Of a stretch of DNA of 64,000 bases, positions 27,514 to 53,259 are shown in pieces. Made by a program: the position numbers and the translations under genes. Source of the stretch: Falsiroseomonas oleicola (GTDB lineage Bacteria; Pseudomonadota; Alphaproteobacteria; Acetobacterales; Acetobacteraceae). The notes beneath the pieces are model-generated. The model made no database searches. It saw nothing but the letters and a program-made list of their open reading frames with translations, and had not been told where the DNA came from. Each line of letters begins with the position of its first letter. The first letter of the stretch is position 1. The stretch covers positions 248,294 to 312,293 of the forward strand of contig NZ_JAERQM010000004.1 of NCBI RefSeq assembly GCF_019029495.1. The letters are read 5' to 3'.

Positions 27514-27615
27514 AAGTGCCGGGCGCGCGCTCCGCGCGCTTGGCTCGCCGCATAAGCGGCGGCGCCCGTTCGGGCGCTCGGCCAGGCCAAAGCGGCCTGG
27601 CCGCGGGTGGCACTT
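27514..27615 (-). repeat. Multi-hairpin intergenic element, copy 1
   Basis: Read on the minus strand, an outer 7-bp inverted repeat (AAGTGCC 27609-27615 and 27514-27520) encloses four hairpins: D, a 9-bp stem (27580-27602); A, a 6-bp stem with loop GAAC (27562-27577); B, a 6-bp stem CGCCGC/GCGGCG with loop TTAT (27546-27561); then unpaired AGCCAA; and C, a 6-bp stem with loop GGA (27525-27539), followed by GCCCGGC. The same order, loops and linkers occur at 53121-53205 with different but paired stem sequences. It lies between an SDR gene and glk. No T-run follows any hairpin. Family not recognised; structured RNA, REP-like element or composite terminator are the options. Confidence 0.8.
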
Positions 27616-27629
27616 TACCATCAAGCAGG

Positions 27630-28382
27630 TCAGAAGGTTGCCCTCCCGCCGCTGATATCGAAGGCCGCGCCGGTCGAGAAGGAACAGTCCGGCGAGGACA
27701 GCCAGCAGATCAAGGCGGCGATCTCCTCCACCTCCACGAAGCGGCCCATCGGGATCTTGGACAGCATGAAGGCGATATGCGCCTCCGTCATCTGGTTGAA
27801 GATGTCGGTCTTGGCGGCCGCCGGCGTCACGCAGTTCACCAGCACGTTCTTCTGCGCCAGTTCCTTCGCCAGCGACTTGGTCAGGCCGATCAGCCCGGCC
27901 TTGCTGGCGGAGTAATGCGCGGCGTTCGGATTGCCCTCCTTGCCCGCCACGGAGGCGACATTGACCACGCGGCCCCAGCCATTCGCCACCAGATGCGGCA
28001 CCACCGCCTGGCAGACCAGGAAGGGCGCGGTCAGGTTCACCTCCACCACCCGGCGCCATTGCGCGGCGGGGATCTCGGTGACCGGCATGTTGCCGCCGGT
28101 GATGCCGGCATTGTTGACCAGGATGTCGATCTTGCCATGGGCGGCGACGGTCTTGGTCGCCGCCTCCGCCACCGCCAGTTCATCCGTCAGGTCCAGCACC
28201 TGGGCGGAGACGGCGCCATCGGCGGCCAGCGCGGCGCGGCTTTCCTCGGCCTTGGCCGGGTCGGCGTCCCAGATCGAGACGGCGGCGCCCGACTGGATCA
28301 TGCGCCGCGCCACGGCAAGCCCGATGCCGCGCGCGCCGCCGGTGACGACGGCGACGCGGCCCTGAAGGTCCAGCTTGTTCAT
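27630..28382 (-). CDS. SDR-family oxidoreductase (3-oxoacyl reductase-like)
   Basis: A 250-aa classical short-chain dehydrogenase/reductase. TGGARGIGLAV is the NAD(P)-binding glycine motif, NNAGITGG the structural motif, and Ser in NVASVAG with Tyr-x-x-x-Lys in HYSASKAG the catalytic set. The closest style is the 3-oxoacyl-ACP reductase/2-deoxy-gluconate dehydrogenase group; substrate unknown. It lies 16 bp after another SDR gene in the same direction, so the two probably share a transcript. Confidence 0.85.
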   Translation of the reverse strand: MNKLDLQGRVAVVTGGARGIGLAVARRMIQSGAAVSIWDADPAKAEESRAALAADGAVSAQVLDLTDELAVAEAATKTVAAHGKIDILVNNAGITGGNMPVTEIPAAQWRRVVEVNLTAPFLVCQAVVPHLVANGWGRVVNVASVAGKEGNPNAAHYSASKAGLIGLTKSLAKELAQKNVLVNCVTPAAAKTDIFNQMTEAHIAFMLSKIPMGRFVEVEEIAALICWLSSPDCSFSTGAAFDISGGRATF

Positions 28383-28398
28383 TGCAGACGCCTCCTCC

Positions 28399-29145
28399 CT
28401 AGCCCCGCCCGACGAAGGGCATCTTGCTGGCCATGATGGTCATGGTCAGCACATTGGTCTCCAACGGCCAGGCGGCCATCTGCGCCACGGCGCGGCCGAC
28501 ATGGTCCACCTTCATCAGTGGCTCCGCCTTGATGGTCCAATCCGCCTGCGGCACGCCCTTGGCCATGCGCTCGGCCATCGGGGTCGCGGCATTGCCGATG
28601 TCGATCTGGCCGACCGCGATGTCGAAGCGGCGGCCATCCAGGTTCATCGACTTGGTCAGCCCGGTCACCGCATGCTTGGTGGCGGTATAGGGTGCGCTGC
28701 CCGGCCGCGGCGCATGGGCGCTGATCGAGCCGTTGTTGATGATGCGCCCGCCCATCGGCGACTGCTTCGCCATCATGCGGAAGGCCGCATGGGCGCAGAG
28801 GAACACGCCGTTGAGATTGACATTCACCACCTTGAACCACTGTTCGGCCGTCAGCTCCTCGAACGGCGTACCGGGCACGTTGTTCCCGGCATTGTTGAAC
28901 AGCAGGTCCAGCCGCCCGAACTCTTTCTCGAGTGTGGCGAAGGCGGCGTCGATCTGGGCCGGTTCGGTCACGTCGGCGGGAACCACCAGGGTCTTGCCCC
29001 CCTCGCACAGCCCGGCCGTCTCCTCCAGCGCATCGCGGCGCCGGCCGAGCAGGGCCACGGTCCAGCCATCGGCGGCCAGCGCGAGGGAGGCCGCGCGGCC
29101 CACCCCGGAGCCTGCGCCCGTCACCAATGCGTATTTCTGTGTCAT
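28399..29145 (-). CDS. SDR-family oxidoreductase
   Basis: A 248-aa short-chain dehydrogenase with [13 protein letters not shown] (cofactor motif), NNAGNNVPG, Ser in [10 protein letters not shown] and Tyr-x-x-x-Lys in PYTATKHAV. First of a two-SDR pair. It diverges from the transglutaminase cassette across 157 bp; that gap contains a 7-bp inverted repeat (GGGTGGA 29177-29183, TCCACCC 29202-29208), possibly an operator. Substrate not predictable. Confidence 0.85.
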
Positions 29146-29302
29146 TCGCGTTCCCCCTCAGCCAATCGGATGGGCAGGGTGGAGCGGCCGGGCGGGTTCT
29201 GTCCACCCGTGAGGCACCGGAGAACCATGTGCGGCCTTGCGGCACCGACCGTTCCGATGGGATAGCGGAGGGTGAATCTCCCGGCCGGACACCCCACGCC
29301 CC

Positions 29303-32300
29303 ATGAGCATCCACGCCGCGCTCACGCACCGCACCAGCTACAGCTATGACCGCCTGGTCGGCATGTCGCCGCAGCTCATCCGCCTGCGGCCGGCGCCGCA
29401 TTGCCGCACGCCCATCCTGTCCTATTCCCTGGACATCTCGCCCAAGCCGCATTTCCTGAACTGGGTGCAGGACCCGCAGGGCAATTTCATCGCCCGGGTG
29501 GTGTTTCCGGAGCGGGTGCGGGAATTCGTCGTCACGGTGGATCTGCTGGCCGACATGGCCACGATCAACCCCTTCGACTTCTTCGTGGAGCCGGAGGCCG
29601 AGAGCTTCCCCTTCACCTATGACCCGGTGCTGGCGCAGGAACTCGCCCCCTTCCGCCGCGTCACCGCGCCCGGCCCGCTGCTGGACGCCTATCTGAAGGG
29701 CATTCCGCGCGAAGCGCCGAGCACCGTGAACTACCTGGTGGACCTCAACCAGAAGCTGTCCACCGAGATCGCCTATATCGTCCGCATGGAGCCCGGCGTC
29801 TGGACGCCGGAGGAAGTGCTGGCGAACCGCAAGGGGTCCTGCCGCGACTCGGGCTGGCTGCTGGTGCAGATCCTGCGCCATCTCGGCTTCGCCGCGCGCT
29901 TCGTCTCCGGCTACCTGATCCAGCTCGTGCCGGATGTGAAATCCGTGACCGGCCCCGTCGGCACCTCGGTCGATTTCACCGACCTGCATGCCTGGTGCGA
30001 GGTCTATGTCCCCGGCGCCGGCTGGATCGGCCTCGATGCCACCTCCGGCCTATTGGCCGGGGAGGGCCATATCCCCCTGGCCGCGACGCCGGAGCCCGCC
30101 TCGGCCGCCGCCATCACCGGCGGGGTGGATGAGGCCGAGACCGAATTCGGCTTCCACATGGAAGTCCGCCGCGTCGCCCAGTCGCCGCGCGTGACCAAGC
30201 CCTACACGGAGGAGGACTGGGCGCGGATCATGGCGCTCGGCAGCCGGGTCGATGAGGCGCTGACCGCCGGCGATGTCCGCCTGACCGTGGGCGGGGAGCC
30301 GACCTTCGTGGCCGATGGCGATCGCGAGGCGGCGGAGTGGAACACCGACGCGCTGGGTCCCACCAAGCGCAAGCTCTCCGGCCAGTTGATCCGCCGCCTG
30401 CAACCCCTCTGGGCGCCGGGCGCCGCGCTGACCTATGCCCAGGGCAAGTGGTATCCGGGGGAGCCGCTGCCGCGCTGGGGCCTGCACTGCCATTGGCGCG
30501 CGGATGGGGAGCCGGTCTGGACCGACCCGGCCCTGCTCGCCAGCGACGAGGACAGCGACACCGCCACCCCCGAGGACGCCGCCGCCTTCGCCGCGACCCT
30601 GGCCAGCCGCCTCGGCCTCGACCCCGCGCTGCGCATTCCGGCGCGGGAGGATGTTCTCTACTACCTGTGGAAGGAGAAGATGCTCCCGGCCAATGTCGTG
30701 GCCGAGGATGCCAAGCTGAAGGACCCGCTGGAACGCGCCCGCCTCGCCCGGCTGTTCAGCCAGGGCCTGGCGGCCGAGGTCGGCTCCGTCCTGCCGCTGC
30801 GCCGCGCGGGCGTAGGGGAGGATCGCGCCTGGGAATCCGGCAAATGGTCCTTCCGCGATGGCGAGCTGCTGCTGGTGCCCGGCGACAGCCCCATGGGCTA
30901 CCGCCTGCCGCTGGACAGCCTGCCCTGGGCTTCCGAGGAGTCCATCGAGGCCGAGCCGGAGCCTGATCCCTTTGCCCGGCGCGAGCCGCTGCGCCCCCGC
31001 CAGGAAGGCCCGGCGCGTGCCCGCATCGTCGAACAGCCGGTGCCGGAGCCGGGGAAGGAGGAGCCGGGCGTGGTCCGTACCGCGCTCTGCGTGGAGCCGC
31101 GAGGCGGCATGATCCATATCTTCCTGCCGCCGCTGGCCGTGGTGCAGGACTGGCTCGACCTGGTCGCCGCCATCGAGGCGACGGCGCGGGAGACCGGGCG
31201 CAAGATCTTCCTGGAAGGCTACCTGCCGCCGCATGATCCGCGCCTGCTGAACTTCTCCGTCACCCCCGACCCGGGCGTGATCGAGGTGAACATCCACCCC
31301 TCCGCCAGCTGGGCCGAGACCAGCGCGCGCACCGAGACGCTGTATGAGGAAGCCCGCCAGATCGGGCTGGCGGCCGAGAAGTTCATGCTGGATGGCCGCC
31401 ATGTCGGCACCGGCGGCGGCAACCACATGGTGATGGGCGCCGCGACCCCGACCGACAGCCCCTTCCTGCGCCGGCCGGACCTGCTGAAGTCGCTGGTCGG
31501 CTTCTGGCACAACCACCCGTCGCTCTCTTACCTGTTCAGCGGCATGTTCATCGGCCCGACCAGCCAGCATCCCCGCGTGGATGAGGCGCGCGGCGATGCG
31601 GTGCATGAGCTGGAGACGGCGCTGGCCCAGGTGCCACCGATGGGCACGGATGTGCCGCCCTGGCTCACCGACCGCATCTTTCGGAATCTGCTGGTCGATA
31701 TGACCGGCAACACCCACCGGACCGAGTTCTGCATCGACAAGATGTATGATCCGGGCCGCGCCGGTGGCCGCCTCGGCCTGGTGGAGTTCCGCGGCTTCGA
31801 GATGCAGCCGCATTGGCGCATGTCGCTCGCCCAGCAATTGCTGCTGCGGTCCCTGGTCGCCGGCTTCTGGCAGCGGCCCTATGAGCGGAAGCTCATCAAA
31901 TGGGGCACCCGCCTGCATGACGACTTCATGCTGCACCACCACGCCCGCCAGGACTTTTCGGAAGTCATCGAGGAGGTGAAGGCGCTCGGCTATCCGGTCG
32001 AGGCCGAGTGGTTCGAGCCGCATTTCGAATTCCGCTTCCCCAAGGTCGGCCACATCGCCCTGCGTGGGATGGAGCTGGAACTGCGCAATGCGCTGGAGCC
32101 CTGGCATGTGCTGGGCGAGGAAGCCACCGCCGCCGGCACCACCCGCTATGTCGACAGCAGCGTGGAACGCCTGCAGACCCGCGTCACCGGCTGGGTGGAG
32201 GAACGCTTCGTCCTGGCCTGCAACGGCGCCGCCGTGCCGCTGACGCCGACGGGGACGGAGGGTGAATATGTCGCCGGGGTGCGCTTCAAGGCCTGGGCGC

Positions 32301-32578
32301 CACCCAGCGCCCTGCATCCCACGGTGCGCGCCCAGGCGCCGCTGACCTTCGATATCTGGGATAGTTGGACCGGACGCAGCCTGGGCGGCTGCCAGCACCA
32401 TGTCGCGCATCCGGGCGGCCGCAACTACCAGACCTTCCCGGTCAATGCGAATGAGGCGGAGGCGCGCCGGCGCACCCTGTTCCAGCCCTTCGGCCACACC
32501 CCCGGCCCGATGCCGGCGCCGCGCAGCCTGCCTTCCCGCGCCACGCCGCGCACCCTTGACCTGAGGCGTACCCCCTGA
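29303..32578 (+). CDS. Transglutaminase-like / DUF2126 protein
   Basis: A 1091-aa protein. The N-terminal bacterial transglutaminase-like domain has an intact triad: Cys180 (GSCRDSGW), His229 (DLHAWCEVY) and Asp245 (GLDATSG). The rest is the large DUF2126 domain with TVGGEPTFVAD, GGGNHMVMGAATP, HNHPSLSYLFSG and EFRGFEMQPH. DUF2126 is always seen beside alpha-E/ATP-grasp proteins and has been proposed to take part in peptide-bond or amide chemistry; no reaction has been shown that I know of. No signal peptide. First of a three-gene run with the ATP-grasp/alpha-E protein and a second transglutaminase. Confidence 0.9.
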   Translation: MSIHAALTHRTSYSYDRLVGMSPQLIRLRPAPHCRTPILSYSLDISPKPHFLNWVQDPQGNFIARVVFPERVREFVVTVDLLADMATINPFDFFVEPEAESFPFTYDPVLAQELAPFRRVTAPGPLLDAYLKGIPREAPSTVNYLVDLNQKLSTEIAYIVRMEPGVWTPEEVLANRKGSCRDSGWLLVQILRHLGFAARFVSGYLIQLVPDVKSVTGPVGTSVDFTDLHAWCEVYVPGAGWIGLDATSGLLAGEGHIPLAATPEPASAAAITGGVDEAETEFGFHMEVRRVAQSPRVTKPYTEEDWARIMALGSRVDEALTAGDVRLTVGGEPTFVADGDREAAEWNTDALGPTKRKLSGQLIRRLQPLWAPGAALTYAQGKWYPGEPLPRWGLHCHWRADGEPVWTDPALLASDEDSDTATPEDAAAFAATLASRLGLDPALRIPAREDVLYYLWKEKMLPANVVAEDAKLKDPLERARLARLFSQGLAAEVGSVLPLRRAGVGEDRAWESGKWSFRDGELLLVPGDSPMGYRLPLDSLPWASEESIEAEPEPDPFARREPLRPRQEGPARARIVEQPVPEPGKEEPGVVRTALCVEPRGGMIHIFLPPLAVVQDWLDLVAAIEATARETGRKIFLEGYLPPHDPRLLNFSVTPDPGVIEVNIHPSASWAETSARTETLYEEARQIGLAAEKFMLDGRHVGTGGGNHMVMGAATPTDSPFLRRPDLLKSLVGFWHNHPSLSYLFSGMFIGPTSQHPRVDEARGDAVHELETALAQVPPMGTDVPPWLTDRIFRNLLVDMTGNTHRTEFCIDKMYDPGRAGGRLGLVEFRGFEMQPHWRMSLAQQLLLRSLVAGFWQRPYERKLIKWGTRLHDDFMLHHHARQDFSEVIEEVKALGYPVEAEWFEPHFEFRFPKVGHIALRGMELELRNALEPWHVLGEEATAAGTTRYVDSSVERLQTRVTGWVEERFVLACNGAAVPLTPTGTEGEYVAGVRFKAWAPPSALHPTVRAQAPLTFDIWDSWTGRSLGGCQHHVAHPGGRNYQTFPVNANEAEARRRTLFQPFGHTPGPMPAPRSLPSRATPRTLDLRRTP

Positions 32579-32625
32579 CGGATGCACCGGCGCCGGCGGA
32601 GCATGAGCCCCCGCAGCTTGACGAA

Positions 32626-35052
32626 ATGGTGGATGGCCGCGGCCAGGTCCGCACGCATTGGCGCGGCCTGCTCGGGGCCTTCTCCTCCCTCGGCTATCCG
32701 GCGGTGGTGGAGCGCGGCCGGCGGCTCGACCGCGCCTTCGAGGAGGAGGGGGTGGCGACCGTGCTGGCCGATAGCGCCAGCCGCACCCGCCGGCCCTGGC
32801 GCTGCGATCCGGTGCCCCTCATCCTCTCGGCCCGCGAATTCGCCACGCTGCAATCCGGCCTGGCCCAGCGCGCCCGGCTGCTGGCGGCGATGCTGGACGA
32901 CCTCTATGGCCCGCAGAGCCTGCTGTCGGAAGGCGTGCTGCCGGCGACGCTGGTCTTCGGCAATCCGCATTTCCTGCGCCCCTGCCGCGACCCGGGGCCG
33001 CCCAGCTTCCCCCGCCTGACCTTCTACGGCGCCGACCTGCTGCGTGGCCCCGACGGTGTCTGGCGCGTGCTGGCTGATCGCTGCGGCGGGGCCAATGGCG
33101 TGGGCTTCGCGGCGGAGAACCGCAACCTGCTGGCCCGCGTGCTGCCCGAGGCGTTTCGCGCCGTGCAGGTCCGCTCCCTGCGGCCCTTCTTCGACACCTG
33201 GCTGGACTCGCTGCAAAGCCTGGCGCCCTCCGGCGTGGACAATCCGCGTCTCGCACTGCTGACACCGGGTGCCAAGCAGGAGACCTGGCTGGAGCATCTG
33301 TTCCTGTCGCGCGAACTCGGCCTGGAACTGGTCGAGACCGGCGACCTGACGGTGCGCGACGGCCATGTCTACCTGAAGACCCTGCGCGGGCTGCGCCGCG
33401 TCGATGTCATCCTGCGGCGGGTGAAGGGGGAGAAGTCGGACCCGCTGGAATTCGACGGCGGCGGCGGCGTGCCGGGCCTGATGCAGACCATGCGCGATGG
33501 CGCCGTCCGGGTGGTGAATGTGCTCGGCTCCATGCTGGCCGAGATGCCCGGCGCGGCGCCCTATCTGCCCGCCTGCGCCCGCGCCTTGCTGCACGAGGAG
33601 CTGGAGTTGCAGGGGTTGGAGACCCTCTGGATGGGCGATCCCGCCTCGCGCGCCCGGGTCGAGGCGGCGCCCGAGGCCTGGCGCCTGCGCTCCGCCTTCG
33701 ATCCGGGGGAATCCACCCCGCTCGGGGCGCTGGAGGTGTTTTCCGAGAAGGGCAGCGCCGCGCCCTGGATGTTCGCCGCCACCCGCCCGCTGCCACCTTC
33801 GGGCGCACCGCGCCTGGTGGGGCCGGGGCTGGAACCGGCGCCGGTGGTGCTGCGCATGTTCCTGGCGCGCGACGCCATGGGCAATTGGCAGGCCATGCCC
33901 GGCGGCCTCGCCCATCTGCTGGAGGGCGGCGGTGCCATCGCCGGCCCGCCGCCGCGCCGCGGCACCGCCAAGGATGTCTGGGTGCTGGCGGAGGATGAGG
34001 ACGACATCGTCGGCCCGGCCATGCCCCGTGGCGCACGGCTCGACATCCGCCGTTCCTCCGGCGACCTGCCCAGCCGGGTGGCGGACGACCTGTACTGGCT
34101 CGGCCGCTATGTCGAGAGGCTGGACGCGGCGGCGCGGCTGCTGCGGGCCCTGCTGGCGCGGCTGCTGCGCGGCGCGGCGATGCCGCGGGAGATCGCGGAG
34201 ATCAAGACGCTGGCCCGCTGCCTGCACGCCGCCGGCGTGATCGAGGCGGAAGCCGCCGCCAGCCCGGCCGATGGCAAGGCCCTGCCGCGCGCGCTGCTGG
34301 CCGCCGCCGGACCGGGCGGTGCGTTGCTCGGCCTGCTGGAGGCGGTGGAGCGGCCGCAGGTGGCGGTGCGGGACCGGCTGACCCATGACATGTGGGCCGC
34401 CTTCGCGCATCTGATCCAGGAAGGCCGCGCCCGACTGGTGCTGGGTGTGGAGGGGGTCGATGCGCTGTCCCAGGCGGTGACCGCCATCATCCGCTTCTGC
34501 GCCACCCTGTCCGGCATCGCGGCGGAGAACATGGTGCGCGGCGGCGCCTGGATGTTCCTCGATCTGGGCCGGCGGATCGAGCGGGCGACGGGCACGGCGC
34601 GCAACCTGGCGCATGCGCTGGACCAGCCGCCGCAGCGTCTGGAGGCGGGGCTGCGGCTGGCGCTGGAGATCTGCGACAGCGCGCTGACCTATCGCGCCCG
34701 CTACCTGGCGGCCGTGCAGCCGGCGCCGGTGCTGGACCTGGTGCTGGCCGATCCGGGCAATCCCCGCGCCTTGGCCTTCCAGCTCACCGCCGTGTCGGAG
34801 CGGCTGGCGGAGATCGCCGGGGCCGAGGACACCCTGGCCGCCACCGCGGCCAGCCTCGCCGCCCGGCCGCAGGCGCTGGTCGACCAGGTGCTGGTGGCGC
34901 CGGACATGGATGCGGCGGCGGCGGCGCTGCCGGCGGCGCTGCATGCGCTGGAGGCGGAGACGGCCGCCCTGTCCGACGCCGTGGCGCGGCGCTATGTCAG
35001 CCATGTCCGCACCCATATGCTGGGCGAGAGTGAATCCGGAACCGCCGATTAA
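32626..35052 (+). CDS. Circularly permuted ATP-grasp / alpha-E domain fusion
   Basis: An 808-aa fusion. About residues 1-470 are the circularly permuted ATP-grasp type 2 domain (RPWRCDPVPLILSAREF, DLYGPQSLL, LADRCGGANGVGFAAENR, LRRVDVILRRVKG), and about 480-808 the alpha-E helical domain (DDLYWLGRYVERLDAAARLLRALL). In most species these are two proteins or one fusion beside a transglutaminase; a peptide-modifying ligase role is proposed for the group. The only ATG is 32626, but the residues just before it (QLDE, then MVDGRG) look like part of the conserved N-terminus, so translation may begin upstream at CTG 32575, which overlaps the previous stop. Confidence 0.88.
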   Translation: MVDGRGQVRTHWRGLLGAFSSLGYPAVVERGRRLDRAFEEEGVATVLADSASRTRRPWRCDPVPLILSAREFATLQSGLAQRARLLAAMLDDLYGPQSLLSEGVLPATLVFGNPHFLRPCRDPGPPSFPRLTFYGADLLRGPDGVWRVLADRCGGANGVGFAAENRNLLARVLPEAFRAVQVRSLRPFFDTWLDSLQSLAPSGVDNPRLALLTPGAKQETWLEHLFLSRELGLELVETGDLTVRDGHVYLKTLRGLRRVDVILRRVKGEKSDPLEFDGGGGVPGLMQTMRDGAVRVVNVLGSMLAEMPGAAPYLPACARALLHEELELQGLETLWMGDPASRARVEAAPEAWRLRSAFDPGESTPLGALEVFSEKGSAAPWMFAATRPLPPSGAPRLVGPGLEPAPVVLRMFLARDAMGNWQAMPGGLAHLLEGGGAIAGPPPRRGTAKDVWVLAEDEDDIVGPAMPRGARLDIRRSSGDLPSRVADDLYWLGRYVERLDAAARLLRALLARLLRGAAMPREIAEIKTLARCLHAAGVIEAEAAASPADGKALPRALLAAAGPGGALLGLLEAVERPQVAVRDRLTHDMWAAFAHLIQEGRARLVLGVEGVDALSQAVTAIIRFCATLSGIAAENMVRGGAWMFLDLGRRIERATGTARNLAHALDQPPQRLEAGLRLALEICDSALTYRARYLAAVQPAPVLDLVLADPGNPRALAFQLTAVSERLAEIAGAEDTLAATAASLAARPQALVDQVLVAPDMDAAAAALPAALHALEAETAALSDAVARRYVSHVRTHMLGESESGTAD

Positions 35053-35922: not shown

Positions 35923-36000
35923 CGACTGTCATCATTCCGACCCTCGACGCGGCGCGGGCCGCGGCGGCAGTTTCCGCCCCCTGCCGAGAGGGAACCGCCC

Positions 36001-36879: not shown

Positions 36880-36888
36880 GCGGCGGTA

Positions 36889-38849: not shown

Positions 38850-38886
38850 GGGCTGATCCTCCTGTTCCTTGGTGTCTTGCGTGACT

Positions 38887-38901
38887 TGGAACTTGGTTCC
38901 A
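38887..38901. promoter_or_regulatory. IclR-type operator
   Basis: TGGAACTTGGTTCCA is a perfect TGGAA-N5-TTCCA palindrome, the shape described for IclR-family operators. It lies in the divergent intergenic region, 38 bp from the receptor start and 41 bp from the preferred start of the IclR-SMP-30 gene, so one site could control both arms. Confidence 0.6.
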
Positions 38902-38941
38902 CGATATGGACACGAACGAAATCGGTCAATCGGGGAGAGGC

Positions 38942-40651: not shown

Positions 40652-40666
40652 GGATTTTTGTCCGTC

Positions 40667-42759: not shown

Positions 42760-42813
42760 CCAAGGGGCGGGCGGTTTCGAAGCTGGCGGTATCCTTCCTC
42801 GGAGCCGCCCGCC

Positions 42814-43263: not shown

Positions 43264-43268
43264 GCGTC

Positions 43269-44990: not shown

Positions 44991-44994
44991 GTCG

Positions 44995-46770
44995 TCAGCC
45001 TTCTTCCAGTAGCGGCTCGGCCGGATCGAACACCTCCCCGGTGCCGCCATCGGTCAGGCCGATGTCGGTCAGATGCGGCCCGGCATTGCAGGCGAGCGAA
45101 ATGCCGGTGATGCCGCGGAAGATGCGATAGGGCGGCTGCCAGTCGCAGACGCGGTCCGCCGCGGCGCGCAGGGCGGAAAAATTGCGGGCGGTGAGGGCGG
45201 GGGGCGTCTCGGCCAGCAGGCCGGCGATGGGCAGCGGCAGCAGCGCCGTCACCGCGCCGTCCTGCGCCACCGCCATGCCGCCGCCCGCCGCGATCACGGC
45301 ATTGGCGGCGGCGGTCATGTTCTCCGCCGTGTCGCCCAGCACCAGCAGGTTATGGCTGTCATGGGCAATGGTGGTGGCGATGGCGCCCCGCATCGCGCCC
45401 CAGCCATCCGTCAGGCAGGTTTTTGGGAGTGCCGGCGCGCGGCCATGGCGGTGGATGATGGTCAGCACGGCATGGCCGGGCGGCATTTCGGCCACGCCAT
45501 CCGTCACCTTGACCGCCGCCTCGCCCCATTCGGTGAAGCGGGACCCGATGATGCGGCGCAGCCTCGCCTGGCCATTCCGGACGCCTTTCACATGCAGCCG
45601 AAAGGCATCCGGCGTCTGCGGCGCAAGCTTCATCGTATGCGTGGGCGCATCCACGCGACGCGCTGGCGCCGTCACCAGCGCGCCGCTGCGCGCGACAACC
45701 ACGCCATCGACCAGCACGCGATCCACCGCGACCGTGGCGAGGTCCGACAGCACCACGATGTCCGCGCGCCGCCCTGGCGCCACCAGCCCGAGATCGTCGC
45801 GCTTCAACCGCATCGCCGCATGCAACGTCGCCAGCCGGATCGCCGAGATGGGCGACAACCCGCGTGCGATGACCCGGGCAATCGTGTCGCGCAGCCCGCC
45901 CTTGGCGACCAGTTCGTCCGGAAAAATGTCGTCCGTCGCCAGCACGAGGTTCACCGGCAGCAGCGGCAGGGTGGCCAGTGCGGCGACGGCGCCGGGCAGC
46001 ACCTGGTCGTGGCTGCCGCGCAGCTCCACCGTCAGCCCCGCGCGCAGTTTCTGGAGAAAATCCTCGGCGGCGGTGATCTCGTGGTCGGAGGTGACGCCGG
46101 CCGTGACATAGGCCTGCAGGTCCGCATGCAGCAGCCCGCGCGCATGGCCGTTGACGTTCTTGCCCGCTGCCATGCCGGCGCCGACGATGCCCGTCATATG
46201 CGCCGTGCCGCGCAGTACGCCGGGCATGTCCATCACCTCCGCCACCCCGACCACCTCCGGCCAGGACAGCATTTCGGCCATTTCCGCCGCGCCGATATCC
46301 GCGCCGGCCAGTTCCAGCCCGGGGGCGGAGGGTACGCAGGACGGCGCCGCGACCAGCGTCCGCAGCGGCAGGTCGCGGGAGGCCTCGACGGCCCAGCGCA
46401 CGCCCGCCACGCCCAGAACATTGGCCAGTTCATGCGGGTCCCAGACGCAGGTGGTGGTGCCGGCGGGGACCACGACGGCGGCGTAATCCGCCGGCGCCAT
46501 GCAACTGCTCTCATAATGCAGATGGCTGTCGATGAAGCCCGGCGCCAGGAAGCGCCCCGCCACATCCTCCACTCGGGCGGAATCGGCCCGCTCGCCGGGC
46601 GGATGGACGGAGGCGATCAGCGGCCCGACGATGCCCACATCCGCCGCGCGCAATTCGCCCGTCGCGACATCCACCAGGATGCCGCCCACCAGCAGCAGGT
46701 CGAAGGGCGCCGAGCCGCGCGCGGCCTGGACGGCGCGGGCGCGGATGGCGGGATCGACGGCCTCGCTCAT
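44995..46770 (-). CDS. ade: Adenine deaminase
   Basis: A 591-aa amidohydrolase converting adenine to hypoxanthine. APGFIDSHLHYESS holds the H-x-H metal motif; WDPHELANVLG, NGHARGLLHADLQAYV, TSDHEI and LVLATDDIFPDELV complete the binuclear site; the C-terminal domain (AHDSHNLLVLGDT, NMTAAANAV) is specific for Ade. Its ATG overlaps the upstream receptor stop as ATGA (46767-46770), and 4 bp separate it from the exporter. Confidence 0.95.
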   Translation of the reverse strand: MSEAVDPAIRARAVQAARGSAPFDLLLVGGILVDVATGELRAADVGIVGPLIASVHPPGERADSARVEDVAGRFLAPGFIDSHLHYESSCMAPADYAAVVVPAGTTTCVWDPHELANVLGVAGVRWAVEASRDLPLRTLVAAPSCVPSAPGLELAGADIGAAEMAEMLSWPEVVGVAEVMDMPGVLRGTAHMTGIVGAGMAAGKNVNGHARGLLHADLQAYVTAGVTSDHEITAAEDFLQKLRAGLTVELRGSHDQVLPGAVAALATLPLLPVNLVLATDDIFPDELVAKGGLRDTIARVIARGLSPISAIRLATLHAAMRLKRDDLGLVAPGRRADIVVLSDLATVAVDRVLVDGVVVARSGALVTAPARRVDAPTHTMKLAPQTPDAFRLHVKGVRNGQARLRRIIGSRFTEWGEAAVKVTDGVAEMPPGHAVLTIIHRHGRAPALPKTCLTDGWGAMRGAIATTIAHDSHNLLVLGDTAENMTAAANAVIAAGGGMAVAQDGAVTALLPLPIAGLLAETPPALTARNFSALRAAADRVCDWQPPYRIFRGITGISLACNAGPHLTDIGLTDGGTGEVFDPAEPLLEEG

Positions 46771-48338
46771 CGCGCGGCGCGCCCGGCGCTGAAGGCCAGC
46801 GTCATCTCATCGGTCCGCGCCTCATAGGTGAAGCCGCGGCGCAGCGCCCAGGTGTTCACCGGGAAGTACAGCGGGATCAGCGCCGTCTGGTCGACCAGCG
46901 CCATCCGCGTCGCCTGCTGCGTCAGCGCGCGGCGCTGGTCGTCATGGATGGTGGTGCGGGCGCGCTGGATGATGGCGTCGATCTCGGGGTTGCTGAACCG
47001 CCCGCGATTGGCGGTGCCGAGGCCGAGCGTCGTGTTCCAGCTATGGATCTGCGTCTCCAGCATCCCCAGCAGTTCCGGATTGGGCGAGAAGCCGGCGAGG
47101 TTCACCGAATAGCGCAACTGCGCCGCCTCGCTCAGCCACATGGATCGCGTCTTGGTCTCCACCGTGGTCGCCAGGCCGAGGCGGGTCCACATCTGGGCGA
47201 TGGCCTGCACCACCTGCTCGTCATTCGGGTAGCGGTCATTCGGGCCGTTGATCTGCACGGCAAAGCCGTTGGGATAGCCTGCCTCGGTCAGCAGGCGCCG
47301 CGCTTCCGCCAGGTCGAAGGGCGGCGGCGTCATATCGGGGGAAGTGCCGAAATAGCCGGGCGGGCCGAGGTCGCCGGCCGCCAGCGCCTGACCCTGCATG
47401 GTGCGGCTGACGATGGCATCCCGGTTGATGGCCAGCGACAGGGCGCGGCGGACACGCGGGTCGCGCAGCGGATTGTCGATGCGCGCGCCGTCGCGGCCGC
47501 GGATGAAGGGGCTGTCCACACGGTCGCTGTCCAGCGTCAGGAAGATCAGGCGGTTGGAGGGGCTTTCGGCGGTGGCGAAGCGCGCCGTATCGGCCTTGAA
47601 GCGGGTGAAGGCGTCGGAGGGCACGATCTCGATCATGTCCACATCGCCGGCCTGAAGCGCGGCGGTGCGGGCGCCGGCATTGGGGATGGGGCGGAATTCC
47701 ACGCGCTGGAAGGCGGGGGCGGCGCCGGCGAAGGCGGGGTTGCGCTCCATCACCACCGGGCTGCCCGGCTGCCAGGAGACATGGCGGAACGGCCCGGTGC
47801 CGACCATGGCGCGGCCGGCATTGTAGTCCGCCGTGCTCGCACCCTCCCCATGCCGCTTGGAGACGATCATCACCAGCGCCAGGAAGTTCGGCAGCAGCGG
47901 TGTCGGCTGGCTGGTGCGGATGTGGATGGTGGTCGCATCCACCGCCTCCACCGCCGTGATCGGCCGCGTGGCGTAGCGGAAGGAGGAGGGGGAGTTCGGC
48001 ACGTCCCCGGCGCGGCTGATGGTGAAGGCGATATCCTCCGCCGTCACCGGCGCGCCGTCATGGAAGCGGGCGGCGGGGTTGAGCTTCACCTCCCAGGTCA
48101 GCTCGTCGATCGGGCGCAGGGATTCGGCGATGGCCGGACGCAGGTCCTGCTTCGCGTCCTGTTCCATCAGCGGTTGGAAGACGTGGCGCGCGAAGGCGAT
48201 GTTGGTGATGAGGCTGGCGAAATGCGGATCGAGGCTGGTCGGCCCGGCCTCCACGCCGATGCGGATATTGTCCTGCGCCAAGGCCGGGGTGGCGATCAGG
48301 GCGGTGCCGAGCAAAGCGGCGCGAAGCTGGCGGATCAT
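46767..48338 (-). CDS. ABC transporter substrate-binding protein, family 5
   Basis: A 523-aa peptide/nickel-type (family 5) receptor. Signal peptide to about residue 22 (ALIATPALAQ), then IGVEAGPTSLDPHFAS, EVKLNPAARFHDGAPVTAEDI and the ALSLAINRDAIV region. Coupled by ATGA to both neighbours (46767-46770 and 48335-48338), but no permease or ATPase genes lie beside it, so it borrows others or they are elsewhere. Sitting between adenine deaminase and a phosphoribosyltransferase, it may bind a nucleobase or nucleoside-related compound. Confidence 0.9.
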   Translation of the reverse strand: MIRQLRAALLGTALIATPALAQDNIRIGVEAGPTSLDPHFASLITNIAFARHVFQPLMEQDAKQDLRPAIAESLRPIDELTWEVKLNPAARFHDGAPVTAEDIAFTISRAGDVPNSPSSFRYATRPITAVEAVDATTIHIRTSQPTPLLPNFLALVMIVSKRHGEGASTADYNAGRAMVGTGPFRHVSWQPGSPVVMERNPAFAGAAPAFQRVEFRPIPNAGARTAALQAGDVDMIEIVPSDAFTRFKADTARFATAESPSNRLIFLTLDSDRVDSPFIRGRDGARIDNPLRDPRVRRALSLAINRDAIVSRTMQGQALAAGDLGPPGYFGTSPDMTPPPFDLAEARRLLTEAGYPNGFAVQINGPNDRYPNDEQVVQAIAQMWTRLGLATTVETKTRSMWLSEAAQLRYSVNLAGFSPNPELLGMLETQIHSWNTTLGLGTANRGRFSNPEIDAIIQRARTTIHDDQRRALTQQATRMALVDQTALIPLYFPVNTWALRRGFTYEARTDEMTLAFSAGRAAR

Positions 48339-49030
48339 GCGGCGTGGTCCTCGGCGGGAAGGGGCAGGCAAAGGTGATGCGGCACCGTCCCGGCCTCCGG
48401 CAGCCAGCCGGCGGGGGAGGGGCGGAAGATGGGGGTGGCGAAGGCGGCGCGGGTCGGGATGGTGACCGGCCAGGTGGCCTGCCAGCGATGGCCCTGTGCC
48501 ATGGCGACCAGCAGCCCCACGGGCGTGACGCCGGCCGCGGCCAGCAGATCGAGTCCCGCCAAGGCGGAGGTCCCGGTGGAGATCACATCATCCACCAGCA
48601 GCACGCGCCGCCCCGCCAGCCGGTCCAGGATGCGGGGATCGAGCCAGAGCCGGCGCGGGGTGGGGGAGGTGATGGAATGGACCGGCACGGAGAGCCGTTC
48701 CTCATACCAGCGTTTCCGCGACCAGCCGGGCGCCACCCAGTTCGCATGGCCCAACGCTTCCGCCACCAGGGGCGCGAAGACCTGGCCGAGGCTGGGCAGG
48801 CCGACCACCACCTCGGGCTGCAAGGGCCGGGCGGCCTCCGTCATGAAAGCGGCGAGGCGGCGGATGACCGGAAAACTGGCCTGGTTGGCGATCAGCCCGG
48901 CCACGGCGAAATCCGAGAAATCGCGCAGCGGCAGGTCCAGCACCGCGCCATCCGGCATCGGTGCCGGGTAGCTCTCGCGATAGGGCGCGCGCGAGGCCGG
49001 CGGCGCGCCAAAATGCTGCCAATACGCCAT
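48335..49030 (-). CDS. Phosphoribosyltransferase
   Basis: A 231-aa type I phosphoribosyltransferase. VLLVDDVISTGTSALAG is the PRPP-binding motif; EVVVGLPSLGQVFAPLVAEAL forms the preceding loop. Start at 49030 (MAYWQHFGAP). The base specificity is not readable, but with adenine deaminase downstream and a nucleoside hydrolase nearby a purine is likely. First gene of a four-gene minus-strand unit ending with the LysE-type exporter. Confidence 0.85.
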   Translation of the reverse strand: MAYWQHFGAPPASRAPYRESYPAPMPDGAVLDLPLRDFSDFAVAGLIANQASFPVIRRLAAFMTEAARPLQPEVVVGLPSLGQVFAPLVAEALGHANWVAPGWSRKRWYEERLSVPVHSITSPTPRRLWLDPRILDRLAGRRVLLVDDVISTGTSALAGLDLLAAAGVTPVGLLVAMAQGHRWQATWPVTIPTRAAFATPIFRPSPAGWLPEAGTVPHHLCLPLPAEDHAA

Positions 49031-49105
49031 CCGGGATCCATTGGGTGTGCGGCGGCAAACTGCCATGCTCGGCGGGTCAACCGCAACCGGCGGAGCGCGT
49101 GCCGC

Positions 49106-49690
49106 ATGCTGCCCAACCTGTTCCACGCCCAGGCCTGCAACAACGCCTGGTCCAACCACCGCCTGCTGAAGGCCTGCGCCGGGTTGGCGCCGGAGGAACT
49201 CGCCGCCCCGCGCAGCGGCTTCTTCCCCAGCCTGATCGCGACGCTGAACCACATCCTCATCGTCGACTGGTTCTATGTAGATGCGCTGGAAGGCGGCTGG
49301 CTCGGCCCGGCCGCCTGGGCCGACCGAGTCCCCCATCCGGACCTTCCCGGGCTGCGCGCGGCGCAGGCGGCGGTGGACCGGCGGCTGGTGGCGCATTGCG
49401 CCGGGCTGGACGACGCAGCGCTGGCCGCCATCGTCCGCGTGAACCGCGACACGCGCGTGCAGGAGGAACGGCGCGACCGGCTGCTGCTGCACCTGTTCCA
49501 GCACCAGATCCATCACCGCGGCCAGGCGCATGCCATGCTGTCCTCCACCCTTGTGAAGCCACCGCAGCTCGATGAATTCTATTCGGTGGCGGAGGCGCCG
49601 CTGCGCGCCGCGGAATTCGCCGCATTGGGGTTTTCCGAGGAGGCGATCTGGGGGCCAGGAAATGCTATGCCGCCTGCCTCCACCGCCTGA
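49106..49690 (+). CDS. DinB-family protein
   Basis: A 194-aa four-helix-bundle protein of the DinB/YfiT family. The three metal-binding histidines are in LNHILIVDW and in FQHQIHHRGQAH (His-x3-His). Many relatives are thiol-dependent S-transferases or hydrolases; the substrate here is unknown. It diverges from the phosphoribosyltransferase across 75 bp and is followed closely by the M20 amidohydrolase. Confidence 0.85.
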   Translation: MLPNLFHAQACNNAWSNHRLLKACAGLAPEELAAPRSGFFPSLIATLNHILIVDWFYVDALEGGWLGPAAWADRVPHPDLPGLRAAQAAVDRRLVAHCAGLDDAALAAIVRVNRDTRVQEERRDRLLLHLFQHQIHHRGQAHAMLSSTLVKPPQLDEFYSVAEAPLRAAEFAALGFSEEAIWGPGNAMPPASTA

Positions 49691-49702
49691 GGCGCGCGCA
49701 CC

Positions 49703-50872
49703 TTGCCCAGCCCCGACGACTTCGCCTCCCGCCTGCCGGAACTGACCGCCTGGCGCCAGGATTTCCACCGCCATCCGGAACTCGGTTTCGAGGAACACCG
49801 CACTGCCGCCCGCGTCGCCGAACGGCTGCGCGGCTGGGGCATCGCGGTGACGGAGGGCATCGCCGGCACGGGCGTGGTCGGCACCCTGCAGGGCCGTCCC
49901 GGTAATCGCGCCATCGGGCTGCGCGCCGATATGGACGCGCTGGCGATGACGGAGGCGACCGGCCTGGACTATGCCAGCGAGACCCCCGGCCGGATGCATG
50001 CCTGCGGCCATGACGGCCATACCACCATGCTGCTGGGCGCCGCCGAATGGCTGGCTTCGAACCGCCACCGCTTTGCCGGCACCGTCCAGCTCATCTTCCA
50101 GCCGGCCGAGGAATCGCTCGGCGGGGCGCGGGTGATGGTGGAGCAGGGGTTGTTCGAGCGCTTTCCGGTCGATGCCGTCTACGGGATTCACAACCTGCCC
50201 GGCCTGCCGCTCGGCACCATCGCCGTGCCGAAGGGGCCGGTGCTGGCGAGTTCCGACACCTGGGAGGTCACCTTCACCGGCGCCGGCACCCATGGCGCCA
50301 AGCCGCATCTCGGCACCGATGCCACCCTGGCCGCCGCGCAGTTCATCACCGCCCTCCAGGCCATCGCGGCGCGGGAGGTGGACCCGCTGGCCACCGCCGT
50401 GGTCAGCGTCGGCCATATGGCGGCCGGCAACCCGGCGGCGCCCAATGTCATCCCCGCCACCGTCTTCCTGAAGGGCACCGCCCGCGCTTTGACCGAGCCG
50501 GTGCGCGGCCAGATCGAGGCCCGCATCGGCGAGATCGCCCAGGCCGTCGCCACCCTGCACCGGCTGCGGGCCGAACCGCGCTACATCCGCCGCCTGTCCC
50601 CCACGGTGAACCACGCAGCGCAGGCGGCGGTGATGGTGCAGGCCGCCACCGGCACGGCGGCGGCGGTGCAGGACGACCATCCGCCGATCACCGCCGGGGA
50701 GGATTTTTCCGAGTTCCTGGCGGCGCGCCCCGGCGCCTATGCCTGGCTCGGCACGGGCGACCCGGCGCATCCCGAGGGCGTCCATCACAATCCGCATTTC
50801 GACTTCGCCGATGCCGCGCTGCCGCATGGCGTCGCCTTCTGGTGCAATCTGGTGGAGCGGGAACTCGCATGA
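49703..50872 (+). CDS. M20-family amidohydrolase (hippurate hydrolase-like)
   Basis: A 389-aa metallopeptidase-fold amidohydrolase. DFHRHPELGFEEHRTA, MHACGHDGHTTMLLG, FQPAEESLGGARVM and the late GEDFSEF give the two-metal site and catalytic Glu. It acts on N-acyl or aromatic amides of amino acids by family. Start TTG 49703 (LPSPDDFASRL) 12 bp after the DinB stop; no ATG lies near the conserved N-terminus. Stop overlaps the nucleoside hydrolase start as ATGA. Confidence 0.88.
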   Translation: MPSPDDFASRLPELTAWRQDFHRHPELGFEEHRTAARVAERLRGWGIAVTEGIAGTGVVGTLQGRPGNRAIGLRADMDALAMTEATGLDYASETPGRMHACGHDGHTTMLLGAAEWLASNRHRFAGTVQLIFQPAEESLGGARVMVEQGLFERFPVDAVYGIHNLPGLPLGTIAVPKGPVLASSDTWEVTFTGAGTHGAKPHLGTDATLAAAQFITALQAIAAREVDPLATAVVSVGHMAAGNPAAPNVIPATVFLKGTARALTEPVRGQIEARIGEIAQAVATLHRLRAEPRYIRRLSPTVNHAAQAAVMVQAATGTAAAVQDDHPPITAGEDFSEFLAARPGAYAWLGTGDPAHPEGVHHNPHFDFADAALPHGVAFWCNLVERELA

Positions 50873-51798
50873 GCGCGCGGCTGACGATCATCGATTGCGA
50901 CCCGGGCACGGATGACGCCATCGCGCTCTGGCTCGCGCTGGCCGCGCCGGAGTTGGATGTGCGGCTGGTGACGGTGGCCGGCGGCAATGTCGGGCTGGCC
51001 TCCACCACGACCAATGCGCGCGCCATCGTCGGGCTGACCGGGCGGGACATCCCCGTGGTGGCCGGCGCCGAACGCTCCCTGATGGCGCCGTTCCGCTTCG
51101 AGACGGCGGTGCATGGGCAGGATGGGCTCGGCGGCGTGACCTTGCCGGTGGGCCCGCCGCTGGCGCCCGGCATCGCGGCGGATGCGATCCGCGACCTGCT
51201 GCGCGCTGCCGCACCGGCCTCCGTCACCGTCATCGGCCTCGGCCCTGTCACCAACCTGGCGCTGGCCTTCGCGACGGAGCCGGCGCTGGCGGGTCGGGTG
51301 GCGGAGATCGTGCTGATGTCCGGCGCCTGGTCCGAGGGCAACATCACCCCCGCCGCCGAATTCAACGCCTGGAACGACCCGGAGGCGCTGGCCATCCTGC
51401 TCGGCCTGGGCTGCCAACTCACCATGGCGACGCTCGACCTGACCGCCCAGGCTTTTGTCACGCCCGAGGTGGTGGCGGCGCTGGAGGCGCGGCCCGGCGG
51501 CGCCTGCTGGCGCGCGGCCACCGCCATCCTGCGCGCCCTGCCACCCTCCCGCCGCATGGGTTTCCGGGGGTTTCCGCTGCACGATCCCTGCGCGGTCGCC
51601 TGGCTGCTGGCGCCTGGGCTGTTCGGCGCGAAGGAGGCGCAGGCGGAGGTGGATTGCGGAACCGGCCCGGGGCGTGGGCGCACGGTGATCGACCGCTGGC
51701 AGCGGCTCGGCCGGCCGCCGAACCTGCGGCTGCTGGAAACGCTGGATGCGGCGGGCTTCTTCGACCTGTTGGCGGAGCGCATCGCGACGCTGCCCTGA
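50869..51798 (+). CDS. Inosine-uridine-preferring nucleoside hydrolase
   Basis: A 309-aa nucleoside hydrolase. The calcium/ribose motif DCDPGTDDAIALWLA opens the protein, with NAWNDPEALAILL and a late LHDPCAVAW completing the site. It splits ribonucleosides into ribose and base, feeding the deaminase and phosphoribosyltransferase on the opposite strand. Translationally coupled to the amidohydrolase by ATGA (50869-50872). Confidence 0.92.
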   Translation: MSARLTIIDCDPGTDDAIALWLALAAPELDVRLVTVAGGNVGLASTTTNARAIVGLTGRDIPVVAGAERSLMAPFRFETAVHGQDGLGGVTLPVGPPLAPGIAADAIRDLLRAAAPASVTVIGLGPVTNLALAFATEPALAGRVAEIVLMSGAWSEGNITPAAEFNAWNDPEALAILLGLGCQLTMATLDLTAQAFVTPEVVAALEARPGGACWRAATAILRALPPSRRMGFRGFPLHDPCAVAWLLAPGLFGAKEAQAEVDCGTGPGRGRTVIDRWQRLGRPPNLRLLETLDAAGFFDLLAERIATLP

Positions 51799-51867
51799 TC
51801 CTCTTCAGGATGCGTCAATGCCGGCGGGGCCACTCTACGCGGCTCAGGATCAAGGGGCGACAGCGTG

Positions 51868-53112
51868 ATGAACCGGCCAAGGCCCCTTTTGCGGCTGCTG
51901 ATGCTCGCCCTGTTGCCGGTGCTCGGTGCCTGCGCCGGCATCACCCGCAATGCCGTGCCGACCGAACTGGCCAATGAGGCGCAGCCGCTGGGCATCCCCG
52001 GCCTGCGGGTCTGGGGCGATGTGCTGGAACCCAATGCGCTGGATGCGCTGGTGGCGCGCCAGGCCGGCATCCTGCGGACGCGCTACGGCGCGCAGGCGGC
52101 GGCGGGGCAGATGCCGGTGCTGCACTACCTGGCCTTGTCAGGCGGCGGGCCGGACGGGGCCTTCGGCGCGGGCGTGCTGAAGGCCTGGTCGCAATCCGGC
52201 ACGAGGCCGCAATTCGCCGCCGTCGCCGGCGTCAGCACCGGGGCCATCATCGCCCCCTTCGCCTTCCTGGGATCGGACTACGATCCGGTGATCGAGGAAA
52301 TCTACACCACGCTGCGCACCAGCCAGGTCGCCCGCAGCACCGTGCTCAGCGGCCTGGTCTCCGGCGTGGCGCTGACGGATACGACAGGGCTGGCCAACCG
52401 CATCGCCCATTACGTCGATGCCGCGCTGCTGGCGAAGGTCGCGGCGGAATACCGGCGCGGCCGGCTGCTCTTCGTCGGCACCACCAATCTCGACTACGGC
52501 CGCCCGATGATCTGGAACATGGGCGCCATCGCCGCCTCCGGCCATGCGGGCGCGGTGCAGCTGTTCCGCGATGTCATCCGCGCCTCCGCCGCTGTGCCCA
52601 TCGCCTTCCCGCCGGTCTTCATCCCGGTGCAGACCGCCGATGGGCGGCGGTTCGACGAAATGCATGTGGATGGCGGCGCCACCTCCCAGGTCGTGCTGAT
52701 CTCGCCGCAGGTGCCGATTGCGGCGCTGACCCGGCAGCAGATCGGCCGCAACATCGACCGGCGGATGTGGGTGATCGTCAACAACCGGGTGCTGACCGAC
52801 CACGCGCCGGTGCGGCCGCGCATCTTCTCGGTCGGCGGCGCCTCGATCAGCGCGCTGATCCGCGGCAGCGCCATCGGCGACCTGTACAAGCTTTTCCTGA
52901 TCGCCGAGCGGGACGAGGTGGAATTCCGCGCCGCCTGGATCCCGCGCCAGGTGCCCTGCACGGCGACCGAGGAATTCGACCCGGTCTATATGCGCTGCCT
53001 GTTCGACTTCGGCGCGGCGGAACAGCGGCGTGGCGCCTTGTGGAGCGACCTGCCGCCCTATTTCGTCCGTCCGCCGCTATCGCCCATGCGCGTGGGCAAC
53101 GCGACCAACTGA
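51868..53112 (+). CDS. Patatin-like phospholipase lipoprotein
   Basis: A 414-aa protein with a lipoprotein signal (MNRPRPLLRLLMLALLPVLGAC, lipobox LGAC, Cys about residue 22; the peptide is split here at Cys). The patatin domain has the oxyanion motif GGGPDGAFGAG, the nucleophile Ser in GVSTGA and the dyad Asp in HVDGGA. Predicted lipid acyl hydrolase at the cell envelope. ATG 51868 is preferred to the GTG three bases before it. Its stop codon touches the first base of the multi-hairpin element. Confidence 0.88.
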   Translation: MNRPRPLLRLLMLALLPVLGACAGITRNAVPTELANEAQPLGIPGLRVWGDVLEPNALDALVARQAGILRTRYGAQAAAGQMPVLHYLALSGGGPDGAFGAGVLKAWSQSGTRPQFAAVAGVSTGAIIAPFAFLGSDYDPVIEEIYTTLRTSQVARSTVLSGLVSGVALTDTTGLANRIAHYVDAALLAKVAAEYRRGRLLFVGTTNLDYGRPMIWNMGAIAASGHAGAVQLFRDVIRASAAVPIAFPPVFIPVQTADGRRFDEMHVDGGATSQVVLISPQVPIAALTRQQIGRNIDRRMWVIVNNRVLTDHAPVRPRIFSVGGASISALIRGSAIGDLYKLFLIAERDEVEFRAAWIPRQVPCTATEEFDPVYMRCLFDFGAAEQRRGALWSDLPPYFVRPPLSPMRVGNATN

Positions 53113-53249
53113 TAACAGCGGACCGGTCTCTTGGCCGGTCCGAGCGGCCGAACGGCCGCCGCCGCTGATGCGGCGAAGCCAAGGAAACCGGAGGTTTCCG
53201 CCCGGCGATTGAGGGGACCGGAGCGGTCACGCGGAAGGGCCGCTGTTAT
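53112..53249 (+). repeat. Multi-hairpin intergenic element, copy 2
   Basis: A perfect 10-bp outer inverted repeat (ATAACAGCGG 53112-53121, CCGCTGTTAT 53240-53249) encloses hairpins in the same order as copy 1: D (GACCGG/CCGGTC, 53121-53140), CGA, A (GCGGCC, loop GAAC, 53144-53159), B (CGCCGC, loop TGAT, 53160-53175), AAGCCAAG, C (GAAACC, loop GGA, 53184-53198), then CGCCCGGC. A fifth hairpin (GACCG, loop GAG, CGGTC, 53216-53228) is extra. It fills the gap between convergent genes. Stems A, C and D differ from copy 1 yet remain paired. Confidence 0.8.
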
Positions 53250-53259
53250 GACCCCGGCC

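Follow-up and report, generated by a model that had tools for sequence, protein, structure and literature searches.

Two multi-hairpin elements of Falsiroseomonas oleicola as probable copies of a miniature transposon family with a conserved hairpin core

Two hairpin clusters in a 64,000-nucleotide stretch of the Falsiroseomonas oleicola genome (contig NZ_JAERQM010000004.1, positions 248,294 to 312,293; the whole stretch is called the window) very probably belong to a single family of non-autonomous DNA transposons, of the miniature inverted-repeat transposable element (MITE) type, with a conserved multi-hairpin core. The mobile nature of the family is well supported. An earlier, sequence-only reading of the window had singled out the clusters, here elements 1 and 2, by their common hairpin order D-A-B-C, the loops GAAC (A), TNAT (B) and GGA (C), the linkers and a trailing GCCCGGC, all of which are present where it had placed them and on the same strands. 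The proposed extents did not hold, as the units are longer, each lying between copies of TGA (Table 1). The different outer inverted repeats, taken there as separate enclosures, are the terminal parts of the mobile unit, and the GGC of the trailing GCCCGGC is paired with the GCC of the linker AGCCAA. Element 1 belongs to type II and element 2 to type I, which are labels of this analysis assigned by a text motif in hairpin D.

The full unit is found in the copy-rich genomes G043, G011 and G044, where it consists of TACCA..., hairpins D, A, B and C, the tail, a hairpin E and ...TGGTA, with TAA, TTA, TCA or TGA on both sides. For the analysis of the flanks, copies were chosen by the similarity of their terminal inverted repeats (TIRs) alone, not by the target repeat. 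The copies selected from G043 and G011 are 143-172 bp in length, end in TACCA.../...TGGTA and have identical TNA flanks in 17 of 19 cases. Overall, 21 of 28 TIR-picked copies have identical flanking triplets where random re-pairing predicts ~9, including 11/11 in G043, 6/8 in G011, 1/1 in G044 and 1/3 at other loci (5.8, 2.3, 0 and 0.5 with random re-pairing). The flanking triplets show insertion into TNA with duplication of these 3 bp. A transposase acting in trans would recognize the TACCA.../...TGGTA ends and insert the units at TNA. The F. oleicola genome harbors 88 matches to its TIR pattern at up to 3 mismatches, compared with 4 to a control pattern.

Element 2 reads TGA-TAACAGCGG...CCGCTGTTA-TGA, with 136 bp inside and a perfect 9-bp TIR. 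The ends of element 1 are not clear in its own sequence; its locus is unoccupied in three congeners (G142, G143, G148), in which the stop codon TGA of the dehydrogenase gene overlaps the start of the glucokinase gene. Relative to that empty site, F. oleicola has gained 131 bp and TGA is now present on both sides. The locus of element 2 has no copy in G142; in G148 the corresponding gap holds another member of the family. The empty and variant loci, taken together with the ends and target duplications, therefore indicate that the family is mobile and that both window copies are insertions.

Several observations weigh against the transposon interpretation. In F. oleicola, five copies alone pass the TIR filter and two of them have identical triplets (0.5 with random re-pairing); element 2, whose ends read TAACA, is outside these five. 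Locus L135, which has a stop codon at its left end, is flanked by the unequal triplets TAA/TGA, and TIRs are recognized by eye in two type II copies alone (L160, L212). The unpaired letters of the core are conserved across orders, which the ends alone do not explain. An autonomous partner was not found: six PF01609 and five PF13340 matches in four genomes are without such ends in the fetched DNA, several of the stretches ending at contig ends. The one long unit with these ends encountered in G043 carries an inserted IS110-family transposase, and 80 further G043 stretches read by script yielded an IS110 element inside a copy and no parent. A MITE can outlive its parent transposon.

The IS110-family transposon of G043 (PF01548, PF02371) interrupts the hairpin A loop, with GGTTAG on one side and GAGCAAGG on the other (L447, G043:C71, 1-1650). 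Its left junction is present in three copies with different surroundings, two exact and one variant (loci involved: L447, L407, L409, L389), and its right junction was seen once, a second place (L244) matching its last 11 bases alone. The repeat looks as if it were a chosen target of the IS110 transposon. IS110-type elements are reported to target repetitive extragenic palindromes (REPs), a comparable situation (PMC1525189, PMC11208160), and REPs are reported as targets of insertion sequence (IS) elements as well (PMC1525189). In Falsiroseomonas stagni (L105, upstream of a core at 4754-4823, minus strand), a perfect ~43-nt hairpin is inserted in the hairpin A loop, the same loop that harbors the IS110 element in G043.

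The extent of the family was assessed by searching a collection of genomes, bacterial and archaeal, with a pattern that combines three features common to both window elements: hairpin B, GCCCGG and the linker GCCAA. At least 104 stretches match this pattern. The named hosts are alphaproteobacteria, mainly Rhodospirillales and Sphingomonadales, in addition to some metagenome-assembled genomes (MAGs) labelled 'Proteobacteria' only. The consensus of 50 aligned copies, both window copies included, has the loops GAAY/GACY in hairpin A and TNAT in hairpin B, then AGCC-AA-hairpin C-GCCC-GGC, with GCC and GGC paired, and the tail GNYTGAGG. A covariance model built from 50 copies, the window elements among them, scores 87.8 and 80.6 bits on these two elements and 16.6 at the next best place in the window. 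The F. oleicola genome contains at least 102 matches at E<=0.001, with 150 of 20317 candidates scored. In an even sample of the class, searched with stricter filters and no more than 34 scored candidates in each genome, 9 of 142 genomes (F. oleicola among them) have matches at E<=1e-6; within that limit, three other genomes have 14, 22 and 32 matches. None of the three outcomes that the sequence-only reading named as refuting it came about: further copies exist, the stems covary, and no Rfam family matches at its gathering score.

The copies fetched from G043 and G011 are nearly identical to one another. None of the plasmid records carries element 2; eight have partial matches to a Croceicoccus copy, and plasmid queries with the TIR, the whole unit and the interior gave nothing usable. 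The Croceicoccus copy, the sole query tried on phage records, is in none of them. No Rfam family reaches its gathering score in the window; at a loose threshold the two elements have seven and five weak matches, M23 falling on both (E 0.9-1.5) on the strand opposite the element. No description of this hairpin-repeat family was found in the literature searched, which left out most subscription journals. The hairpin clusters are one real, widespread family of dispersed repeats that is undescribed in that literature.

The arrangement of the copies varies across hosts. In Croceicoccus, a Sphingomonadaceae MAG and an alphaproteobacterial MAG, the core is present in back-to-back inverted pairs with the tails outward. 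Some F. oleicola copies are in tandem, and there are partial units consisting of hairpin C and the tail, or the tail alone. Shortened derivatives with the same ends as the full unit also exist. A 462-bp unit (L093 4510-4971) with TAA on both sides, whose TIR begins TACCAAAGGTCCTTGA and is perfect over at least 16 bases, is perhaps another derivative of the same parent transposon. Several F. oleicola copies (L279, L200, L201, L212, L214, L216) contain a nested ~27-nt palindrome, CGCGCCGAAGGCGCGCCTTCGGCGCG or close variants, in the 3' arm of hairpin B, giving cores of ~100 nt. In G043 copies L285, L287, L288, L372, L383, L385 and L387, the hairpin B segment is flipped and repeated (GCGCGCCATCAGGCACGACGCC), an arrangement reminiscent of template switching at palindromic sequence. 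Within inverted pairs, the partner copy has a hairpin B variant, CCGAGC-TTAT-GCGAGG, in which two Watson-Crick pairs are replaced by tandem G.A/A.G (L057 1702-1775, minus strand, L031, L068 and L081 of Croceicoccus; L052 of Sphingomonadaceae). One of these loci also has a thiamine pyrophosphate (TPP) riboswitch match (L031 140-279) of 50.8 bits, just under the gathering score of 54.3.

The family hairpins covary far above chance. Two alignments were fitted to the covariance model, one of 89 of the 90 F. oleicola loci L135-L224 (L198 was left out) and one of 99 of the 104 loci L005-L108 from other genomes, and were compared with 500 shuffles and with slid structures. The F. oleicola alignment has 94 distinct rows, in which 96.0% of pair cells are standard as opposed to 76.6% in shuffles, and its covariation score of 0.413 exceeds the 0.096 of the shuffles, none of which reaches it, and the slid structures (at most 0.068). 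Changes on both sides are seen in 15 of 21 pairs; one of five measures, further pair types, was equalled by 6 of the 500 shuffles. The 130 distinct rows from other genomes are 92.5% paired and score 0.400 as compared with 0.085. The compensatory stem changes noted in the two window copies are thereby borne out for the family, no shuffle reaching the score in F. oleicola or elsewhere. Because the search pattern prescribed hairpin B as well as portions of the linker and tail, the 50-copy alignment does not serve to judge how conserved these are.

The pairing is also apparent when copies are anchored without regard to it. Counts of stems, hairpin D and the left arm are based on the 48 of 60 anchor-matched F. 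oleicola copies with GA at the expected loop of A, in which Watson-Crick cells number 283/288 in A, 283/288 in B and 300/306 in C. Hairpin D has all seven pairs in 32 of the 48 copies and six in 11 more, against 1 and 23 of 960 shuffled controls. Among 34 type II copies, with an anchor not requiring pairing, stems A, B and C are 99, 98 and 98% Watson-Crick.

Table 1. Features of the two window elements (positions within the window)
Feature	Position	Strand	Basis
Element 1 (type II), whole inserted unit, 128 bp, between two TGA target copies	27502..27629	-	empty site in three congeners (G142, G143, G148)
Element 1 left target duplication TGA, stop codon of short-chain dehydrogenase gene 27630-28382	27630..27632	-	sequence, empty-site comparison
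Element 1 right target duplication TGA; with the preceding A (27502) forms ATG of glucokinase gene 26558-27502	27499..27501	-	sequence, empty-site comparison
Element 1 left arm, 24 nt, terminal region, no recognizable TIR	27606..27629	-	
Element 1 hairpin D, GGCCAGGCC-GCTTT-GGCCTGGCC	27580..27602	-	sequence
Element 1 hairpin A, GCGCCC-GAAC-GGGCGC	27562..27577	-	sequence, covariance model
Element 1 hairpin B, CGCCGC-TTAT-GCGGCG	27546..27561	-	covariance model
Element 1 GCC-AA-(hairpin C GCGCGC-GGA-GCGCGC)-GCCC-GGC and tail ACTTGAGG	27510..27544	-	covariance model
Element 2 (type I), whole unit, 136 bp, TIR TAACAGCGG / CCGCTGTTA	53113..53248	+	
Element 2 left target duplication TGA, stop codon of patatin-like gene 51889-53112	53110..53112	+	
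Element 2 right target duplication TGA	53249..53251	+	
Element 2 hairpin D, GGACCGG...CCGGTCC, overlaps left TIR	53120..53141	+	
Element 2 hairpin A, GCGGCC-GAAC-GGCCGC	53144..53159	+	sequence, covariance model
Element 2 hairpin B, CGCCGC-TGAT-GCGGCG	53160..53175	+	covariance model
Element 2 GCC-AA-(hairpin C GGAAACC-GGA-GGTTTCC)-GCCC-GGC and tail GATTGAGG	53178..53214	+	covariance model
Element 2 right terminal region, hairpin E and right TIR	53215..53248	+	

The family is of the MITE type, with an unusually conserved multi-hairpin core (D-A-B-C and the tail GCCCGGCGNYTGAGGG). In common with prokaryotic MITEs, as characterized in a review (PMC10969869), its members are short, non-coding, bounded by TIRs, flanked by target duplications, intergenic and capable of forming hairpins. 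The units of 128 and 136 bp and their copy number in F. oleicola agree with a short, multi-copy element devoid of coding capacity; TIRs are present in type I (TACCA/TGGTA) and not recognizable by eye in most of type II; and the target site duplication is seen as TNA in 18 of 20 copies of G043, G011 and G044 and at the empty site of element 1. The same review gives MITEs as typically AT-rich, whereas the window repeat is GC-rich, with core GC contents of 0.71 and 0.79 (PMC10969869). The multi-hairpin core, with its covarying stems and conservation across bacterial orders, is a further difference. Insertion at 5'-TNA-3' with 3-bp repeats is attributed to the IS1031 subgroup of the IS5 family (PMC12016507), and the repeat has this target duplication in common with IS1031. 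The IS1031 ends quoted in that source (GAACCTGTCTAGTATCT) are unlike the TACCA... of the repeat (PMC12016507), and no transposase of this kind with the ends of the repeat was found in the fetched DNA.

Gene context was examined for the 61 copies that match the text anchor in L135-L224, out of at least 102 in the genome, with genes predicted by a home-made codon-usage caller rather than taken from an annotation. None of the 61 copies is inside a predicted gene; 21 are between convergent, 38 between tandem and 2 between divergent genes, and the intergenic gaps of the window comprise 3 convergent, 28 tandem and 5 divergent ones for comparison. A stop codon abuts an element end in 12 of 20 type I copies by eye. 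The TNA target includes TAA, TGA and their reverse complements TTA and TCA, and insertion into a stop codon therefore rebuilds that stop. At the overlapping operon junction of element 1, the insertion rebuilt the stop at the left and the start at the right, and GAGG is located 7 nt before the rebuilt ATG, where it may act as a ribosome-binding site carried by the element. Ten of 12 type II copies in sense orientation between tandem genes, with a start within 32 nt downstream, are followed by ATGA or GTGA, a figure that is weak by itself as 25 of 50 window starts have A at +4. Once inserted, copies would serve as hairpins between cistrons or where genes end. The transcript-end structure suggested by the sequence-only reading is thus right as to position, and the TNA target can account for that position.

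The reason why the hairpins are kept is a separate matter from mobility. It is improbable, although worth weighing, that the core is a selected structured RNA with a role in regulation or 3'-end processing, kept by host genes after insertion and merely spread by mobility. The strong stem covariation and the 98-99% Watson-Crick pairing of the type II stems agree with it, as do the unpaired AGCCAAG and GCCCGGCG..TGAGG, conserved between orders but partly fixed by the search pattern, and the recurrence in Croceicoccus of the B-stem variant with tandem G.A pairs. Across 30 type II copies, agreement is 32% over the outer 20 nt of the left arm (26% when shuffled) and 77% over A and B, a difference suggesting that the core continues to be maintained once the ends have decayed, although it was by the core that the copies were found. 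Units with ends and no core do exist, so the conservation of the core partly reflects how copies were found. Orientation in tandem gene pairs is unbiased, with 21 sense and 17 antisense copies. Over distinct stems there are 553 Watson-Crick, 14 G-U, 8 A-C and 21 other cells, after 11 stems with more than two non-pairs were set aside (1 A, 5 B, 5 C); G-U is rare relative to Watson-Crick pairs, and its excess over A-C is not significant (p 0.29). The earlier proposal of a conserved structured RNA is consequently retained as to a conserved, covarying dispersed repeat and not as to the RNA, in view of the orientation and wobble counts.

Pairing this close to perfect, and with so few wobble pairs, is consistent with DNA-level palindromes or with templated correction, and the DNA level is where such Watson-Crick pairing would most likely be kept. 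One cause may be a mobilization machinery that needs the folded or palindromic form; another may be the correction of an imperfect palindrome with its opposite arm as the template. The latter can be put in a stronger form, in which strand switching at replication produced the stem covariation with no selection on folding, and this explanation, which concerns the cause of the covariation and not mobility, is possible though on balance doubtful. The flipped hairpin segments and the extra palindromes inside copies speak for it, together with the scarcity of wobble pairs in F. oleicola stems that are 98-99% Watson-Crick. It does not explain the kept unpaired core letters and the loops GAAY/GACY, TNAT and GGA.

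A REP or bacterial interspersed mosaic element (BIME) mobilized by a REP-associated tyrosine transposase (RAYT), the second identity raised by the sequence-only reading, is the least probable of the explanations considered. High copy number, intergenic position and palindromic units are features of such repeats, and the back-to-back inverted pairs of Croceicoccus and some others resemble them. The F. oleicola genome has no match to PF01797 (Y1_Tnp), which is matched in 5 of 14 control genomes, the Croceicoccus genomes not being part of the RAYT search; the repeat has TIRs and 3-bp TNA target duplications instead, and a GTAG tag beside the stem was not seen by eye in the alignments. One study (PMC3733652) describes alphaproteobacterial REPs with single stems of 8-9 bp, a CGTC tag and no known transposase. 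REPs, BIMEs and REPINs (REP doublets), the CGTC-tagged REPs included, have high copy number, palindromes at gene ends and alphaproteobacterial hosts in common with the window family; they are single palindromes of 20-40 bp with a GTAG or CGTC tag (PMC3733652), whereas a unit of the window family spans ~130-170 bp and combines four to five hairpins with TIRs and TNA duplications. The CGTC-tagged REP, with its single 8-9 bp stem and CCA tail, was rejected as a candidate on structure; some tails of the family read GGCGTC, but this site is variable.

Kinship with the twister-sister ribozyme (RF02681), in degenerate or divergent form, is scarcely more credible. Among Rfam families, RF02681 scores best on four copies from Croceicoccus (L022, L057, L058, L068), full-length and below threshold, with up to 27.7 bits (E 0.0004) on a 311-bp stretch, and the three best places in 21 genomes (28.1, 26.4 and 25.2 bits) are copies of the repeat. 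GCAAG, AAGCC, GGCG and U-N-A line up in the Croceicoccus copies. The gathering score of 34 is reached in none of the 21 genomes, 28.1 bits being the best, while 6 of 14 unrelated control genomes match at the same loose threshold, and just 5 of 30 places fetched as loci are the repeat, all from Croceicoccus or Erythrobacter. The F. oleicola copies have GA in 46 of 48 D-A linkers, not the GCAAG strand, and hairpin B, which covaries in the repeat, is not part of the twister-sister fold. In the four-way twister-sister ribozyme, C62 is reported to be replaceable whereas A63 and G5 matter (PMC5660989); the Croceicoccus copies keep GCAAG and U-N-A, and the A of the cleavage site lines up there. Membership was not accepted, scores being below the gathering score wherever searched, and the likeness, a sub-threshold alignment, is a lead of low probability.

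As a more speculative and rather unlikely idea, the core may function as an RNA module, perhaps one that descends from a small ribozyme or only looks like one, and be carried between alphaproteobacterial operons by stop-codon-seeking transposons and kept working after their ends decay. If true, this would be a mobile RNA element that ensures tolerance of its own insertion. The family offers a system in which selection at the RNA level may be separated from palindrome correction at the DNA level, a distinction that bears on every covariation-based search for RNAs. A TNA target that includes stop codons is a simple route to transposon tolerance in compact genomes, as the stop is rebuilt and sometimes the next start too. 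The probable assignment to a MITE-type transposon family provides a testable identity for hairpin clusters so far unexplained in intergenic DNA, roughly a hundred of them in one genome and many more across the Alphaproteobacteria.

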